From a virus, in the IMG/VR virus record IMGVR_UViG_3300025133_006005, positions 1 to 38,265 of that record: 38,265 nucleotides of DNA. One strand, given 5' to 3'. The notes below the pieces were generated by a model that saw nothing but the letters and a program-made list of their open reading frames with translations, had not been told where the DNA came from and searched no databases. The position numbers and the translations under genes were made by a program. Below, in pieces: positions 4,502-26,058 of this stretch (its first letter is position 1; the number at the start of each line of letters is the position of its first letter).

Positions 4502-4739
4502 GTTCTTGTACAGGTTTAGGTTTAGGAAGAATAAGAGTTTCATCTATACACATAAATTTAATAATAGTTCCATATTTATTAACTTCTTCTGCTCCTATCT
4601 CTTCAGCTTTTTTAATAGATTCCTTATATCCAGAAATCATACATTCATAATGAGAGTTATATACTTCGGGCATATTATGAGGAGGTAAACAGCTATTATA
4701 TACTGAACTACATATTATCATACTTAATATAAATTTCAT
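4494..4739 (-). CDS. 81-residue putative secreted Cys-containing protein
   Basis: MKFILSMIICSSVYNSC is a short signal-peptide-like start. The mature part has further cysteines (C33 in YECMISGY, C64 in KFMCIDE) that could form disulfides in the periplasm. The motif MISGYKESIKKAEEIG followed by a beta strand is typical of small secreted proteins in uncultured marine phages. Role unknown. The start overlaps the stop of the peptidase gene. Confidence 0.6.
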   Translation of the reverse strand: MKFILSMIICSSVYNSCLPPHNMPEVYNSHYECMISGYKESIKKAEEIGAEEVNKYGTIIKFMCIDETLILPKPKPVQEHV

Positions 4740-5038
4740 TTATCTTTTAAACACCTCACTATTAAATTTTTTAAAATAGGATTACTTTTTAAAACAGTAT
4801 AATATTGTTCTGTTAAAGTTGCTACTTTTTCTTCACCATGCGGGCCTACTTGAAAATCATTTAAAGCCATTATAATATGAAAAATTTCATGAAATAAAGT
4901 CTTACCTAACATTTGTTTAGTAAGTCCTTTTCTAATAATTAAGGTATTAGTATTGTAAGTATATAAAGCATAGTCATCTATCTTTTTAAAGATGACTTTT
5001 GTTGTTGTATTTTTGTATTTAATTTCAGTTAGTTTCAT
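4736..5038 (-). CDS. Minimal HExxH zinc-metallopeptidase-like protein
   Basis: 100 residues with HEIFH at 50-54 (in KTLFHEIFHIIMALND). That is the zinc-binding and catalytic motif of zincin peptidases; acidic residues at 69-70 or 77 could supply the third metal ligand. The size and arrangement resemble the catalytic core of ImmA/IrrE-type peptidases without an accessory domain. ImmA/IrrE proteins cleave repressors, so a role against a host or prophage regulator is possible, but the substrate cannot be read from the sequence. It overlaps the downstream secreted-protein gene. Confidence 0.65.
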   Translation of the reverse strand: MKLTEIKYKNTTTKVIFKKIDDYALYTYNTNTLIIRKGLTKQMLGKTLFHEIFHIIMALNDFQVGPHGEEKVATLTEQYYTVLKSNPILKNLIVRCLKDK

Positions 5039-5068
5039 GGGGCCAATCTTCTGACCCCATTATAACAT

Positions 5069-5812
5069 TTATCTCCCAAGCATTCTACTTTTTGTTTGAG
5101 CATTTACTTGAGTATTTAGACCAATACCACCTCCTGCGGCTTTACCGTTATGATAAGCGGCTCTATCTCTTATATTCATACTGCTTTTTTTCGATACAAT
5201 ACGAACACCTTGACTAACGAGCCACTCCGAAAGAGCCTTCTGTTCATTCTTATAAAGCATTGGTAATCCATCTGGATTTTTTATACCTTCATAAGGTGGA
5301 GCTATTTCTTCAAATCTATCTTTCAATCTTTTAGATAGACGACTTGCGCAACCTAACTTAAAAGCTTGTTTCATTCGATTAATAGCTGACTTACTACCAG
5401 GTACAGTTTTAAACTCATTCTCTGCTAGTCTTACAACTGTACTTATAAAGTAATCGCACATTGATTTAGCTACTATTCTATTGGATTTTCTTCCAACAAA
5501 AGTAGCTTTTTTCACTCTACGATAATTAGCATCTATACCTGACGAAGTATACATTTGACAAAAGTATAATTTAGCAGTAGCTGATTGAATCCAACCACGC
5601 CAATTATCTCTTGCGACATCAACTGATTCTTTATCAATTGGTTCTACTTCTGTATCATCTTTTATATCAGACATAGATAGATTATGTTCCGAAAGCAATT
5701 GTTGAGCTTTATTAGCAGCAAGCATGGCTTCGTTCTCTGATGCACCATTTTCTTCTGACATCTTTAAAAGCTTTTGTATTCGCTTCAGAATACTCTCTTT
5801 TTCTTCTGGCAT
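5069..5812 (-). CDS. DUF2786-containing protein
   Basis: 247 residues from the ATG at 5812, fixed by AGAAAGGAG at 5817-5825; upstream in-frame codons exist but fall in the structured element. The N-terminal 45 residues (ILKRIQKLLKMSEENGASE, then NEAMLAANKAQQLLSEHNL) match the DUF2786 domain found in many phage and plasmid proteins. A larger basic, helical region follows, with a Gly-rich C-terminus (GKAAGGGIGLNTQ). The biochemical function is unknown. The gene sits downstream of the three-way-junction element, which would form its leader. Confidence 0.75.
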   Translation of the reverse strand: MPEEKESILKRIQKLLKMSEENGASENEAMLAANKAQQLLSEHNLSMSDIKDDTEVEPIDKESVDVARDNWRGWIQSATAKLYFCQMYTSSGIDANYRRVKKATFVGRKSNRIVAKSMCDYFISTVVRLAENEFKTVPGSKSAINRMKQAFKLGCASRLSKRLKDRFEEIAPPYEGIKNPDGLPMLYKNEQKALSEWLVSQGVRIVSKKSSMNIRDRAAYHNGKAAGGGIGLNTQVNAQTKSRMLGR

Positions 5813-5839
5813 ATTTCTCCTTTCTTTATTATTAATTGA

Positions 5840-5913
5840 ATCAGTAAGACCGCTTCGGCGACACACTAGTATTGAGCCGTCTCAGAATTCTGTGTCTCAT
5901 AAGTCTTACTGAT
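5840..5913. ncRNA. Structured element: predicted three-way junction
   Basis: Three perfectly complementary helices pack together. P1 is ATCAGTAAGAC (5840-5850) with GTCTTACTGAT (5903-5913), 11 bp. P2 is CGC-TTCG-GCG (5851-5860), which on the plus strand is the very stable C(UUCG)G tetraloop hairpin. P3 is ACACA (5861-5865) with TGTGT (5891-5895), capped by TGAG-CCGT-CTCA (5873-5884). P1/P2 and P2/P3 abut without a spacer. GC content is far above the surroundings. The UUCG loop favours a plus-strand RNA, but the helices also form in the minus-strand leader of the DUF2786 gene. It matches no riboswitch or tRNA that I know. Confidence 0.5.
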
Positions 5914-5970
5914 CCTAGGCAAATAACTACCTGTCTCTGTAGACCCACGGCTTAACGCCCTGCGATAATT
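5914..5970. other. GC-richer non-coding extension beside the junction element
   Basis: No reading frame of note. Small complementary pairs occur: GTCT (5933-5936) with AGAC (5941-5944), the competing CTAC (5927-5930) with GTAG (5939-5942), and GGC (5949-5951) with GCC (5957-5959). It is clearly less AT-rich than its surroundings and probably belongs to the same structured element. Confidence 0.35.
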
Positions 5971-5984
5971 ACTTGCTATTCTTA

Positions 5985-6389
5985 CTATATATTATTTTTT
6001 TCTTTTTTAGACAAGATTATTCGTATTGTGTTCCAATCTTTCGCTATCGCTTTTTGCTCCCATTCTTCCCGAGTTACACCAATCGCTAAAGCTTCACCTT
6101 CTGAACTTGGAAATAAATAAATTTCTTTATCCTTTTTCACAATTATATAGACAAGTCCTCCGTGATAGGTATAAGACTTGTGCCATGCGATTTGTTCTAT
6201 ACTCAGCTTTAGCTTTAATTTGGTTTTTTCTCTTTTGGGGGACCGCACATACTTACCTTCTAGCCAACCACTTTGACCAGCTGAACAGTAGTGCACATCA
6301 GGAATTCCTCGTTCAATCTGTGTCTCAATTCTCTGAATAAAAAAATCGTTTAATTTTGATCTAATCGTCTGCCAAATTTGCTTTTCCAT
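5985..6389 (-). CDS. PD-(D/E)xK nuclease, VRR-NUC-like
   Basis: 134 residues. GIPDVHYC (D31) followed by GWLEGKYV (E44, K46) is the PD...ExK catalytic signature, and EQIAWH supplies the usual downstream Gln/His helix. The short size and order match VRR-NUC or Holliday-junction-resolvase-like nucleases, which cut branched or damaged DNA in a metal-dependent way. In a phage this would serve recombination, repair or junction clearing before packaging. It overlaps the end of the NAD synthetase gene, so the two are co-transcribed. Confidence 0.75.
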   Translation of the reverse strand: MEKQIWQTIRSKLNDFFIQRIETQIERGIPDVHYCSAGQSGWLEGKYVRSPKREKTKLKLKLSIEQIAWHKSYTYHGGLVYIIVKKDKEIYLFPSSEGEALAIGVTREEWEQKAIAKDWNTIRIILSKKEKNNI

Positions 6390-21136: not shown

Positions 21137-22618
21137 ATGCAAGTAAAATTTATAAATGAAAAGAAATTTTTAAAATATAATTTTAAAACTAAACCTTATC
21201 AACATCAATATGATGCATTTGATAAAAGTAAAGAAAAAAAATATTATGCTTTATTTATGGAACAGGGTACAGGAAAATCTAAAGTTATTATTGATAACAT
21301 TGCTTATCTTTATCGAAAAGGTAATATTGATACTGCTATTATTGCTGCCCCTAAAGGTGTATATCGTAATTGGTATGCTTCAGAATTTAAAGCTCATATG
21401 CCTGCAGATGTGGTTAGTTTTACAGATATATGTATTTGGAATCCAATAGAAACTAAAACTAATATTGAAAGATTAACTAAATTTTTAGAATTTTCTCATA
21501 AATTAAAATTTTTTATTATTAATATAGAAGCTCTATCTACAGAGAAAGGTAAAAACTATTTACAACGATTATTAAATATTTCTAAATCTTTTTTCTGTAT
21601 AGATGAAAGCACTAATATAAAAAATAGAACTGCTAGAAGAACTAAAGCATGTATGAAGTTAGGTAAATTAGCAACTTATCGAAGAATATTAACAGGAACT
21701 CCAGTGACCCAAGGTCCATTAGACTTATGGTCTCAAATGCATTTTCTAGATGAGTTTATACTTCAATCGAGTTTCTATGCTTATCGAAATACATTTTGTG
21801 TTATTCAAAGAAGAAGAACATCTAGTCATAGTTTTGATGAAGTAGTAGGTTATCAAAGATTAGATGAACTTCAAAAAATATTAGATGAACATTCTTTTAG
21901 AGTAACTAAAGAAGAATGTTTAGATTTACCACCTAAACTACGTCAAATAAGACATATCGACATGACACCGGCTCAAAAGCGCATGTATGTCATACTTAAA
22001 AAACGTGCTATACTAGAACTAGAACGTGAGAAATTAGTGACGGCGCCTCTTATTATCACACGAATATTGAGATTACAGCAGATATTATGTGGATTTATTA
22101 AATATGATAATAAAACTGAAGAAAATATAGAAGGTGAGAATCCAAGGATTCAGGAACTATTAAGTGTAATAGAAGAAACTCAAGGCAACATAATTATATG
22201 GGCAACTTATAGAAATAGTATTAAATTAATTAGAGATACATTAGCTAAAAAATTTGGAGCAAGTAAAGTTGCAGCTTTCTTTGGTGATACTAAAGCAGAA
22301 GATAGACAAGGTATTGTTGAAAGATTTCAATCAGGAGAATTAAGATTTTTTGTAGGACAACCTAGAACTGGTGGATATGGACTTACATTAACTAATGCTA
22401 AAACTGTAATCTATTTTAATAATACTTATGATATGGAAGTTAGACTTCAATCTGAAGATAGAGCACATAGAATTGGACAAAAGGATAAAGTATTATATAT
22501 AGATTTTATATGTCCTAATACTTTAGATGAAAAGATAATGAAAACTTTAAATACTAAAAAGAAACTCGCTGATCAAATAACTGGTGATAATTGGAAAGAA
22601 TTATTTAAAGAACTTTAG
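21137..22618 (+). CDS. SNF2-family DEAD/DEAH helicase
   Basis: 493 residues; the only gene on the plus strand. Walker A QGTGKS (43-48), Walker B IDEST (DEST at 156-159), motif III LTGTP, and helicase C-terminal motifs with GGYGLTLT and QSEDRAHRIGQ, the SNF2 hallmark. It is a double-strand DNA translocase driven by ATP, here in the compact form seen in many phages, without accessory domains. It might remodel protein-DNA complexes or branched DNA during replication. AGAAAG lies 6 bases before the ATG. Its 3' end overlaps the radical SAM gene on the other strand by 14 bases. Confidence 0.93.
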   Translation: MQVKFINEKKFLKYNFKTKPYQHQYDAFDKSKEKKYYALFMEQGTGKSKVIIDNIAYLYRKGNIDTAIIAAPKGVYRNWYASEFKAHMPADVVSFTDICIWNPIETKTNIERLTKFLEFSHKLKFFIINIEALSTEKGKNYLQRLLNISKSFFCIDESTNIKNRTARRTKACMKLGKLATYRRILTGTPVTQGPLDLWSQMHFLDEFILQSSFYAYRNTFCVIQRRRTSSHSFDEVVGYQRLDELQKILDEHSFRVTKEECLDLPPKLRQIRHIDMTPAQKRMYVILKKRAILELEREKLVTAPLIITRILRLQQILCGFIKYDNKTEENIEGENPRIQELLSVIEETQGNIIIWATYRNSIKLIRDTLAKKFGASKVAAFFGDTKAEDRQGIVERFQSGELRFFVGQPRTGGYGLTLTNAKTVIYFNNTYDMEVRLQSEDRAHRIGQKDKVLYIDFICPNTLDEKIMKTLNTKKKLADQITGDNWKELFKEL

Positions 22619-24503
22619 TCTTATATCTTGCTATTCTTCTACCAAACCATAAAGTATTTTTAGCCCATTCATATAGATCATCATAAGTTTTACCAGTAAA
22701 AGTTTGTACATTTTTTTGCTCTTTAAAAGATTTATTATTTTCTATAACATCATGTATATTAAAATTAAAATATTGATAAATAGGATATTGTTTAAAAGGA
22801 TGATGTAAACGAGCTTTTTGATAATTAATTATATCTCTTAAAATAAAGTCATCTACATCATATTTATCTCTTAAATATTTAGAAATTTGATTATAAAATA
22901 TTTCTTTATTTTTAACTAATCGAATACATGTTGCTTCATCTACTTCCCAATTAATATTTCCTACTCCTGAAATAACATCTCCCCAATGTCTTTTATTCTT
23001 TAATATTTTATTTAAATTTTTTTTTATAGTTAAATATTCTTTTCCTATATAAGTGTTAGACTTTTTTTCACAAAAAGATAAGAGATCAGTATAAAAATCT
23101 TTATAATTAATATTATATATTTTTTTCATTGCTCTAGCTATAAATTGTAACGGACCTAAATAATGGCCAAAGATAACTAGCCATCTAAATTGATGACCCT
23201 TGATCCAATCTTTATGATTACATTTTCTTGTTGCTATAACAAAAGAAACTAAATCATCTACTAACTTTTCTGGATTGGATCTATGTGAAAATCTAGGTTG
23301 AGCATTTACTGATTTAATTCCAAATTGATCTTTATATCCTGGTTCATTAATAGGTGCGTTAGGTAATAACATCATTAAATGTACATCTAAATAAGTATGA
23401 TAACCTTCTTCCATTATATAAGTTACACCATCTATAAAAGAATCAATAGTTTCTTCAGGTAATCCCCATATTAATTCTACATAACTTCCTATTCCTTCTT
23501 TCTCATACATATCTATAAATTCTTTTAATTTACCACTATGTACATTTTTTCTTTTTACAGCTTTTAAAACATCAGGATTAAAAGACTGTAAAGCAATAGT
23601 CATTCCTTTTTGAATATCATGCTTTTCAAATAATTTAGCTATTTGTAAAACTTTATCAGCTTGTCCTTTTGCCCAAGTAACTCTAAAAGCATGTGGATAT
23701 CCTGTTTTCTCTTTTACTTTAACAACATATTCTGCTAAATTCATATCTTGATCAAATAAAATACCAAAATTAGAATTAGCATCAGTTACATATTCTATTT
23801 TATTTTTAGCAATCCAATCTATTTCTTTTTTAGTTTTTTCATAACTTGTTTTTAATTTTTGATAATATTTATCTCCAATTTCACAAAAAGCACAACTAAA
23901 AGGACAACCTCTTGCTGATTCTACTGTTGCGTGAAAATTATAATTTTTATCTTTTTTATTTTTTTCTACTACCCAATCAAAACTACCATCAAGAAAAGGA
24001 CTAGGATTATCATGTATACCTTCTAATCTTACACGTGGAGGATTTCTTACTTCTTTATTATTTATATTATAAGTTATACCTTTTATTTCTTCATAAGGTT
24101 TTTCATATAATAATTCTTTTACTGTTTCTTCACCTTCACTATGTATTAAAACATCTACATAAGGATGTTCATTAAAAAAACCTTTGGCTCTATCAGCTAA
24201 TGGTTGATGTTGTCCTCCAAACATTATTTTACAATTAGGATAATTTTGTTTTATAGTTTTAGCTATCTCACAATTTAAATTCCAATTCCACATGAAACAA
24301 CTAAAAAGTAATATATCTGGATTTTCTATTTTATTAATAATATTTTTAGCTTCATCACGAGCATAAAACCAATCTTTTAATTTATAGTGATCTTTAATAT
24401 AAGGATTATTTTTAACATAAGACCATACTACACCGCTACAATAAGGAAGATAAACTTGATTAGCAAATACATCGCTTAATTCGAATAAATATATATTTTT
24501 CAT
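22605..24503 (-). CDS. B12-binding-domain radical SAM enzyme
   Basis: 632 residues. The N-terminal part (1 to about 135) has the order of a cobalamin-binding Rossmann domain (PDILLFSCFMWNWN, CKIMFGGQH, DVLIHSEGEET). The radical SAM core begins with C200-x3-C204-x2-C207 (RGCPFSCAFCEIG) for the 4Fe-4S cluster and continues through ESARG, TIALQSFN and ELIWGLPEET. No DxHxxG motif is present, as is usual for this class, which often methylates unreactive carbons. A 200-residue helical C-terminus is unassigned. The gene is one base from a BtuB-like receptor gene. The substrate is unknown. Confidence 0.85.
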   Translation of the reverse strand: MKNIYLFELSDVFANQVYLPYCSGVVWSYVKNNPYIKDHYKLKDWFYARDEAKNIINKIENPDILLFSCFMWNWNLNCEIAKTIKQNYPNCKIMFGGQHQPLADRAKGFFNEHPYVDVLIHSEGEETVKELLYEKPYEEIKGITYNINNKEVRNPPRVRLEGIHDNPSPFLDGSFDWVVEKNKKDKNYNFHATVESARGCPFSCAFCEIGDKYYQKLKTSYEKTKKEIDWIAKNKIEYVTDANSNFGILFDQDMNLAEYVVKVKEKTGYPHAFRVTWAKGQADKVLQIAKLFEKHDIQKGMTIALQSFNPDVLKAVKRKNVHSGKLKEFIDMYEKEGIGSYVELIWGLPEETIDSFIDGVTYIMEEGYHTYLDVHLMMLLPNAPINEPGYKDQFGIKSVNAQPRFSHRSNPEKLVDDLVSFVIATRKCNHKDWIKGHQFRWLVIFGHYLGPLQFIARAMKKIYNINYKDFYTDLLSFCEKKSNTYIGKEYLTIKKNLNKILKNKRHWGDVISGVGNINWEVDEATCIRLVKNKEIFYNQISKYLRDKYDVDDFILRDIINYQKARLHHPFKQYPIYQYFNFNIHDVIENNKSFKEQKNVQTFTGKTYDDLYEWAKNTLWFGRRIARYKTKVL

Positions 24504-24504
24504 A

Positions 24505-26058
24505 TTAAAATGTTTTAGTATATCCTATTGTAATTTGTCTATCTTTACCTGTAAAGCCATGTGGCATTTCGTAATTTTTATTTAATAAATTATTAATATT
24601 TAAAGTAAATCCATATTTTTCTATTCCTAGATTAAATAAATGAAGTTCTTTCATATCTATAATAGACCAATTAGAATTATGAATATCTTTACTTTCTCCT
24701 ATATAATTATAACTGGTAATTAAATTAAAGTCATTTATATTATAAATATAATTAAATCCTCCTGAAAATTTAGGTCTCCTTAATTGTACTACTCCATTTT
24801 TTTTACTATTTAATTTAGAAGCAAATATTTCAAAATTATCAATTTTATAAGATAGCTCTATTCCATCTTGATTCTGTATTCCTGTTTCTGATTCAAATAA
24901 AGCAAGAGTAATATTATTATAATCAAAAATTAATTCATTAGTTTTACTATCTTCTTCTAATGTCCATATAGTTCTTTTTTTATATCCAGTAGAATGATTA
25001 GCTCTTATATTTAAATCATTAAACTTTTTAAATAATCCGATATTATAACTATTAAAATCTGAATCTTTTCTTGCTCCTAAAGATATAAGTCCGTTAGTAT
25101 AATTTGTAAATAAACTTACATTATCATCATCTTGAGTATGAGATTGATCATACTTATAATCTAAACCTAACCCAAATGTATTATTTTGATGACCGAGTTT
25201 TATGAAATAATTTTCAGATTTATATTCATCACTTTCATATTTTCTATCATATTCGTGTGTATGTAAGTAAAGATAATTATTACCATTTTTTAATTGTTGT
25301 TCTAATCCTGTTTGTAAAGCGAAAAACGTATTATCACTAAATCCATTTTGAATATCTAAGGAATGACCATCAATATTTGTAAAAGTATTTCTTGAAAAAA
25401 AGGTTGTTTTAAAATTAATATTATCATACCATTTACTTAAATTAATTCCTATTGATTTATTATTAACACTATCTTTATCAGTTCCGTGTTTTAAGGCGGA
25501 GGATTCTTTTTCTTTAAATTGTCCTCCTTGAATACTTATATCCCAATCATTTATATTTGTATAGTAATTTCCATTAATACTTTTATTTGTAGTAGATATT
25601 TTAGTTTCATAATCAGTTATTGTAATTATATTAATAGCTCCGCCTATTGCATCCACTCCAAACTTACTAGCTGATGCTCCTTTATAAACTTGAATAAAAG
25701 ATACATTATACATAAAGTCTTGACCAAAATCAAAAGCTCCTGTAGGTGTAGAAAAATCATTTATAGGAATACCATTAAGTAAAACTAAAGTATTATTACT
25801 ATTTGTTCCTCTTAAAAATAATGATGAGTGTTGACCTATAGGTCCAGATTGTACTGCATTAGATCCATTTATAAAATTTAATACTTTAGTTAAAGTATTA
25901 AGACTAAAAGTTTGTATTTCTTTTTTAGAAATAATAGAAGTAGGTTTAATTTTATAATCTAAAGAATTAGCATTAATAGTAAGACAAGGAATATCATCTT
26001 TCCAATTACAAGCTTGAGCTGATGTTGTTATTAATAAAAATATTATAAACCACCTCAT
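24505..26058 (-). CDS. TonB-dependent outer-membrane receptor, BtuB-like
   Basis: 517 residues. Signal peptide MRWFIIFLLITTSAQA, with cleavage before C17. A TonB-box-like LTINAN stretch (26-31) comes next. The plug domain has LRGTNSNNTLVLLNGIPIND (82-101) and YKGASASKFGVDAIGGAINI (125-144). A beta-barrel of about 370 residues ends in NLLNKNYEMPHGF and a terminal Phe, the BAM-recognised outer-membrane signature. The last 30 residues track E. coli BtuB closely (NLFDKDYETVYGY...YTF). All parts look intact, only shorter than BtuB (614). It should import a TonB-dependent ligand, plausibly a corrinoid. Its phage origin is shown by the lysis genes on one side and the SNF2 gene beyond its partner. 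Confidence 0.85.
   Translation of the reverse strand: MRWFIIFLLITTSAQACNWKDDIPCLTINANSLDYKIKPTSIISKKEIQTFSLNTLTKVLNFINGSNAVQSGPIGQHSSLFLRGTNSNNTLVLLNGIPINDFSTPTGAFDFGQDFMYNVSFIQVYKGASASKFGVDAIGGAINIITITDYETKISTTNKSINGNYYTNINDWDISIQGGQFKEKESSALKHGTDKDSVNNKSIGINLSKWYDNINFKTTFFSRNTFTNIDGHSLDIQNGFSDNTFFALQTGLEQQLKNGNNYLYLHTHEYDRKYESDEYKSENYFIKLGHQNNTFGLGLDYKYDQSHTQDDDNVSLFTNYTNGLISLGARKDSDFNSYNIGLFKKFNDLNIRANHSTGYKKRTIWTLEEDSKTNELIFDYNNITLALFESETGIQNQDGIELSYKIDNFEIFASKLNSKKNGVVQLRRPKFSGGFNYIYNINDFNLITSYNYIGESKDIHNSNWSIIDMKELHLFNLGIEKYGFTLNINNLLNKNYEMPHGFTGKDRQITIGYTKTF

Follow-up and report, generated by a model that had tools for sequence, protein, structure and literature searches.

An island of high GC content at positions 5838-5979 of an IMG/VR virus contig (the window, the whole stretch of 38,265 nucleotides that was analysed) folds on the minus strand into two adjacent, separate hairpins, A then B, directly upstream of the ribosome-binding site of a DUF2786 gene. 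The fold favours the coding strand, and hairpins of this kind change their stems in a compensatory manner, reuse cores at several genes, associate with Shine-Dalgarno (SD) sites and are exchanged between phages. The explanation we prefer, and hold tentatively, is that A and B are two structured RNA modules in the 5′ leader of the DUF2786 mRNA, exchangeable cassettes with a cis effect on the mRNA of the gene that follows. Whilst the hairpins and their exchange are evident, we infer the cis action.

The island and its coding strand

The island has a GC content of 45.8%, as opposed to 28.7% across the window, and just 0.06% of all 142-nt segments are equally rich; the compositional contrast noted in the original prediction is therefore real. 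All genes around the island lie on the minus strand in the list of open reading frames, making this the coding strand here. The minus-strand fold has an energy of -54.2 kcal/mol (z -4.9, with none of the shuffled sequences folding as well), compared with -34.7 kcal/mol (z -2.0) for the plus strand, which is weak in context. Hairpin A hardly folds on the plus strand, at -6.6 kcal/mol against -22.8 kcal/mol on the minus.

The original prediction described a single plus-strand three-way junction, with an 11-bp helix that encloses a UUCG hairpin together with a further compound stem. These helices are indeed predicted for that strand, but the junction is not free of unpaired bases as had been claimed, the minimum-energy fold leaving one before P2 and six after P3. 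The C(UUCG)G loop likewise is confined to the plus strand; at that position the transcribed strand has CCGAAG. What stands is that the island is structured. It comprises two hairpins and the true three-way junction, that of hairpin A, was missed. The proposal of a regulatory RNA with a selected structure holds up given the compensatory changes in related elements and the location directly before the DUF2786 ribosome-binding site, although on the other strand.

The island occupies the gap between two genes, as predicted, although the label of nuclease given by the earlier reader to the upstream gene (5985-6389, minus strand, 134 amino acids) is unconfirmed since the product has no Pfam match. 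Hairpin A (5919-5976, minus strand) starts 8 nt after the stop codon of this gene. The predicted fold consists of a 13-bp closing stem (5976-5964 with 5931-5919) and a 32-nt core of two small stems, which together create the three-way junction. Hairpin B (5838-5915, minus strand) is predicted to be elongated, with a 14-bp closing stem (5915-5902 with 5851-5838) and a 50-nt core that includes an inner 6-bp helix. It occurs only in contigs of the window phage itself and, with no independent homologue, its fold is derived solely from energy calculations.

The SD site of the DUF2786 gene, GAAAGGAG (5817-5824, minus strand), lies 13 nt past hairpin B in a leader shared with relatives, and the ATG at 5812 is 25 nt past the hairpin. 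The gene (5069-5812, minus strand) encodes a 247-residue protein with DUF2786 and DUF7168 domains according to Pfam. A longer version of the gene from a GTG at 5866 was rejected; it would read into hairpin B and is not common to the relatives. A riboswitch or thermometer that sequesters the SD site was also discounted because the site is not within a stem and is predicted to be mostly unpaired in the ground state, with a mean unpaired probability of 0.72-0.80 when 60-250 nt of leader are folded. Nor do the hairpins resemble intrinsic terminators. There are no terminator-like sites, and the stems are followed by CTAAC..GAAAGG-like sequence and not by a U-tract. Between 5700 and 6200 no promoter-like site was found on the minus strand using a sigma-70-like pattern, which may not be the type used by the host. 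Separately, a further hairpin, GGGGTCAGAAGATTGGCCCC (5035-5055, minus strand), directly adjoins the ATG of the gene that follows (4736-5038), a gene without a clear SD site.

Scanning against Rfam 15 gave no family above the gathering threshold, permissive thresholds producing matches at chance level only, and no known ribozyme family was among the matches; the cores could belong to a new ribozyme class. A tRNA/tmRNA scan found none, and a BLAST search of the island against cultured phages gave chance-level matches only. A literature search, covering few subscription journals, found no description of these elements.

Exchange of hairpins between related phages

The polymerase and a tail-region protein of the window are nearest to those of Pelagibacter phages HTVC023P and HTVC027P and phage DSL-LC04, with approximately 39-46% identity (40-45% for the polymerase), so this is an uncultured, probably marine, phage without a close cultured relative. 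The first 50 kb of each of these three genomes held nothing comparable to the cassette set, with 3/110, 3/81 and 2/103 SD sites, respectively. Two other genes of the window deserve mention. A 517-residue protein (24505-26058, minus strand) carries a TonB-dependent receptor plug domain (PF07715, E 4e-17), unusual for a phage contig, and the adjoining gene (22605-24503, minus strand) encodes a radical SAM protein with a weak match to a B12-binding domain.

The same gene junction is present in several tens of contigs, where the leader is empty, has one hairpin or has two. Empty DUF2786 leaders are seen in, for example, L005, L006, L018 and L019. Most of the hairpins in the gap are unrelated to A and B: C in L013 and L016, D in L014, D with E in L025 and L026, F in L029 and L072, G in L036 and L038-L040, I in L034 and L073, J in L066 and J with K in L067. 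The leader of L045 is more complex. Phage leader hairpins have usually been studied singly; here the same gene with no, one, two or different modules offers a natural experiment on their role.

Element A recurs alone, without B, in L065 and L101. These copies share the 32-nt core without change, and the arms differ at three of 26 bases. All three changes (window against L065) pair as G-U on the minus strand, where they would be A-C mismatches on the plus. Some empty alleles, such as L019 (ACAAGTAATTAATAAGAAAGG), appear to retain the 5′ arm of A, which would be compatible with loss by deletion.

Comparisons of elements with their adjoining genes indicate that the elements have been exchanged as cassettes. 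Element C is identical at 69/69 positions in L061 and L064, whilst the DUF2786 genes alongside are 79% identical at the DNA level. For element D in L062 and L074 the values are 58/59 (98%) and 67%, and for element A in the window phage and L065, 60/63 (95%) and 75%. Near-identity on this scale cannot be fully separated into recent transfer and strong constraint. A 31-row tree of the DUF2786 protein requires at least 12 changes in cassette state and at least eight in presence or absence, counts to be taken as indications because many forks are not firmly supported. L033, L034, L062, L072 and L073 have an insertion in this junction, or close to it, of a gene that by eye resembles a sugar epimerase; whole genes thus also come and go beside the hairpin site.

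Recurring cores and Shine-Dalgarno sites

Reading the complete contigs of 24 related phages for further sites showed that long-stem hairpins stand directly before SD sites at other genes also. The richest such site is the leader of a small gene starting MSTRACYTF (the STRACYTF leader), which in the window phage is located just beyond the left edge of the window (L049, L217). This leader contains tandem hairpin arrays with spacers resembling TAACCGAAAGGAG. SD-like GAAAGGAG copies separate the hairpins in L219 (approx. 1170-1505), L214, L216, L225, L226 and L227. Two hairpins in a row in L219 have nearly the same stem and different cores, further hairpins are inserted into the arrays of L214 and L216, and at the last array position a GAGTTGT..ACAACTC stem encloses at least five different cores. 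In this one uncultured marine phage group, no fewer than 15 different small RNA modules are thus exchanged at a few fixed places.

Five cores, Y, W, F, E and X, recur with different closing stems, and the stem changes keep the pairing. Core Y (ACGCCAG..TAAAACC..GGAGTYCTGCCAGG) has three different stems, set by hand, with no broken pair among those compared; it is found in the STRACYTF leader, in the G014 DUF2786 leader and upstream of another ORF in L226. Core F precedes the DUF2786 gene in G013 and the STRACYTF gene in G023, and has two stems with none broken among the nine pairs compared. Core W has three stems and precedes two or more genes. With a structure fitted after a first look at the data, 97% of its stem positions are paired and six of 13 pairs have changed on both sides, including two of the five inner-helix pairs (slid controls gave at most one). 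Core X has seven distinct stems, in which all 79 cells are paired (100%) and nine of 15 pairs have changed on both sides, as opposed to at most three in slid controls. A core resembling E recurs in the distant phage G024. A search for the Y pattern in 84,980 bacterial and archaeal genomes returned 36 matches scattered over unrelated taxa, approximately the chance expectation, and matches to the core D pattern in L103 and L106 were rejected as unrelated and due to chance.

Distinct stems lie upstream of GAAAGG sites far more often than upstream of permuted hexamers, the 441 GAAAGG sites having 34 and the 4,274 control sites 26 (Fisher p 2e-20), in a sample where contigs are related, score thresholds were set after examples had been seen and about seven of the 34 stems fall in coding sequence. 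The search scored G-U and A-C alike, and the resulting ratio of G-U to A-C is 26:3 at SD sites against 19:13 at controls (p 0.009). Such an excess fits an RNA on the coding strand. Taken individually, 15 of 20 elements also have a better folding energy on the coding strand, a weaker signal than that of the wobble pairs.

Could the hairpins be mobile DNA elements or recombination handles, of the MITE/REP or PeSL type, for which an RNA fold is incidental? In keeping with this, a given site may have or lack an element, elements are inserted in tandem between copies of the SD and can be almost identical where their surroundings diverge, and the junction gains whole genes such as the epimerase-like one; palindromes, moreover, can be perfected by template switching. 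We nevertheless regard it as unlikely. G-U greatly outnumbers A-C on the coding strand, and the Y, F, W and X copies all have the same orientation, just upstream of an SD site. The core A pattern has a single extra exact match elsewhere in viral contigs, in the unrelated phage L102, apparently within coding sequence and attributed to chance, and no transposase was recognised beside the element within the window.

Possible roles of the modules

In the explanation that we prefer, cassettes acting in cis, A and B belong to a larger set of hairpins of about 45-80 nt, in each of which a long stem (8-15 bp) closes a structured core; CTAACNNGAAAGGAG-like sequence often comes after. The marine phage group exchanges these cassettes, inserts them in tandem and loses them upstream of the SD sites of a few accessory genes, where they may serve to process the following mRNA or to make it more stable. 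Their most likely job would be to set a processing point or a protected 5′ end, with RNase III-type cleavage of the long stem one predicted option and protection of the ribosome-binding site by a stable hairpin against 5′-end-dependent decay another. Both the location and the long stem match those of an element for intercistronic processing or stability. If one job is served by different folds, then modules could replace one another, and the interchangeability observed would suit a task open to a variety of folds. Whatever the effect on the next gene, it cannot be essential since many relatives do without any element. Counting against this explanation, the conserved cores exceed the needs of an unspecific double-strand cleavage site, and they leave room for catalysis or ligand binding.

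A different view takes the cores to be small functional RNAs in their own right. They would be self-cleaving ribozymes or aptamers, from several classes not yet described, that carry out the same leader job and are mutually replaceable. The small size, the conserved core within a freely varying closing stem, the reappearance of a core before several genes (Y, W, F, E and X) and the lack of an Rfam match are what such RNAs might display. No catalytic or ligand signature was recognised however, several cores were seen once only and the downstream genes share no obvious pathway, and we judge the proposal distinctly unlikely. More doubtful again is its extension to a shared phage pool of several new classes of self-cleaving or ligand-binding RNA, plugged in as cassettes with compensating stems before ribosome-binding sites, two of them in tandem here. 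Should the cores prove to be catalytic or to bind ligands, several new RNA classes would be obtained at once.

Leader hairpins might also bind a phage or host protein to control translation, for example in autoregulation by the DUF2786 protein. The polymerase of phage T4 autoregulates by way of a leader hairpin (PMC3014915), and the position adjoining the SD site would suit such a role. This is very unlikely, since unrelated cores or an empty leader at one gene, together with one core before different genes, do not fit an arrangement of one operator per protein.

Least credible are the plus-strand antisense RNA and the packaging or replication signal suggested in the original prediction: the plus strand does fold and has one promoter-like site, but that count is at chance level, hairpin A almost fails to fold there, the A arm changes and the wobble ratio point to the minus strand, and close relatives lack the element or have unrelated ones, with several sites per genome.

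How do the cassettes that we favour compare with known systems? The closest idea in print is that of the PeSL (promoter-early stem-loop) cassettes of T4-type phages, reportedly treated by Arbiol et al. 2010 and Comeau et al. 2014. As cited in PMC4503421, a PeSL joins a stem-loop to an early promoter and is regarded as a promoter-terminator motif; like the elements here, PeSLs are short stem-loop cassettes between phage genes that are shuffled among related phages. In the present cassettes neither a minus-strand promoter, with the reservation that the consensus may not be that of the host, nor a terminator was found. They differ too in a stem that encloses a structured core and is placed directly before the SD site. 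With both promoter and terminator features absent we do not assign them to PeSL, although their shuffling between genes is PeSL-like.

The RNase III processing sites of T7-type early mRNAs are intercistronic; each is an irregular hairpin of about 60 nt that shortly precedes a ribosome-binding site. A and B resemble them as long, mostly double-stranded hairpins (stems of 13 and 14 bp) placed between cistrons and upstream of the next SD site. The differences are that here one core can stand in for another to which it is unrelated, and that conservation of some cores is strong. In Pelagibacter, GC-rich intergenic islands are structured RNAs with covariation (PMC2704228). The elements described here are likewise GC-rich, structured and covarying in AT-rich marine genomes, but those are host RNAs, phage being unmentioned in PMC2704228, and ours match no Rfam family.

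A minor feature was noted directly upstream of X, a two-codon ORF after a strong SD, GGAGGT..ATGACTTA(A/G), encoding Met-Thr-stop (ATGACGTAA in G020). The carriers are G003 (L111, 6289-6481), G006, G008, G009, G002 and G020, the hairpin in the last being similar to X. This ORF resembles the bar minigenes of phage lambda.
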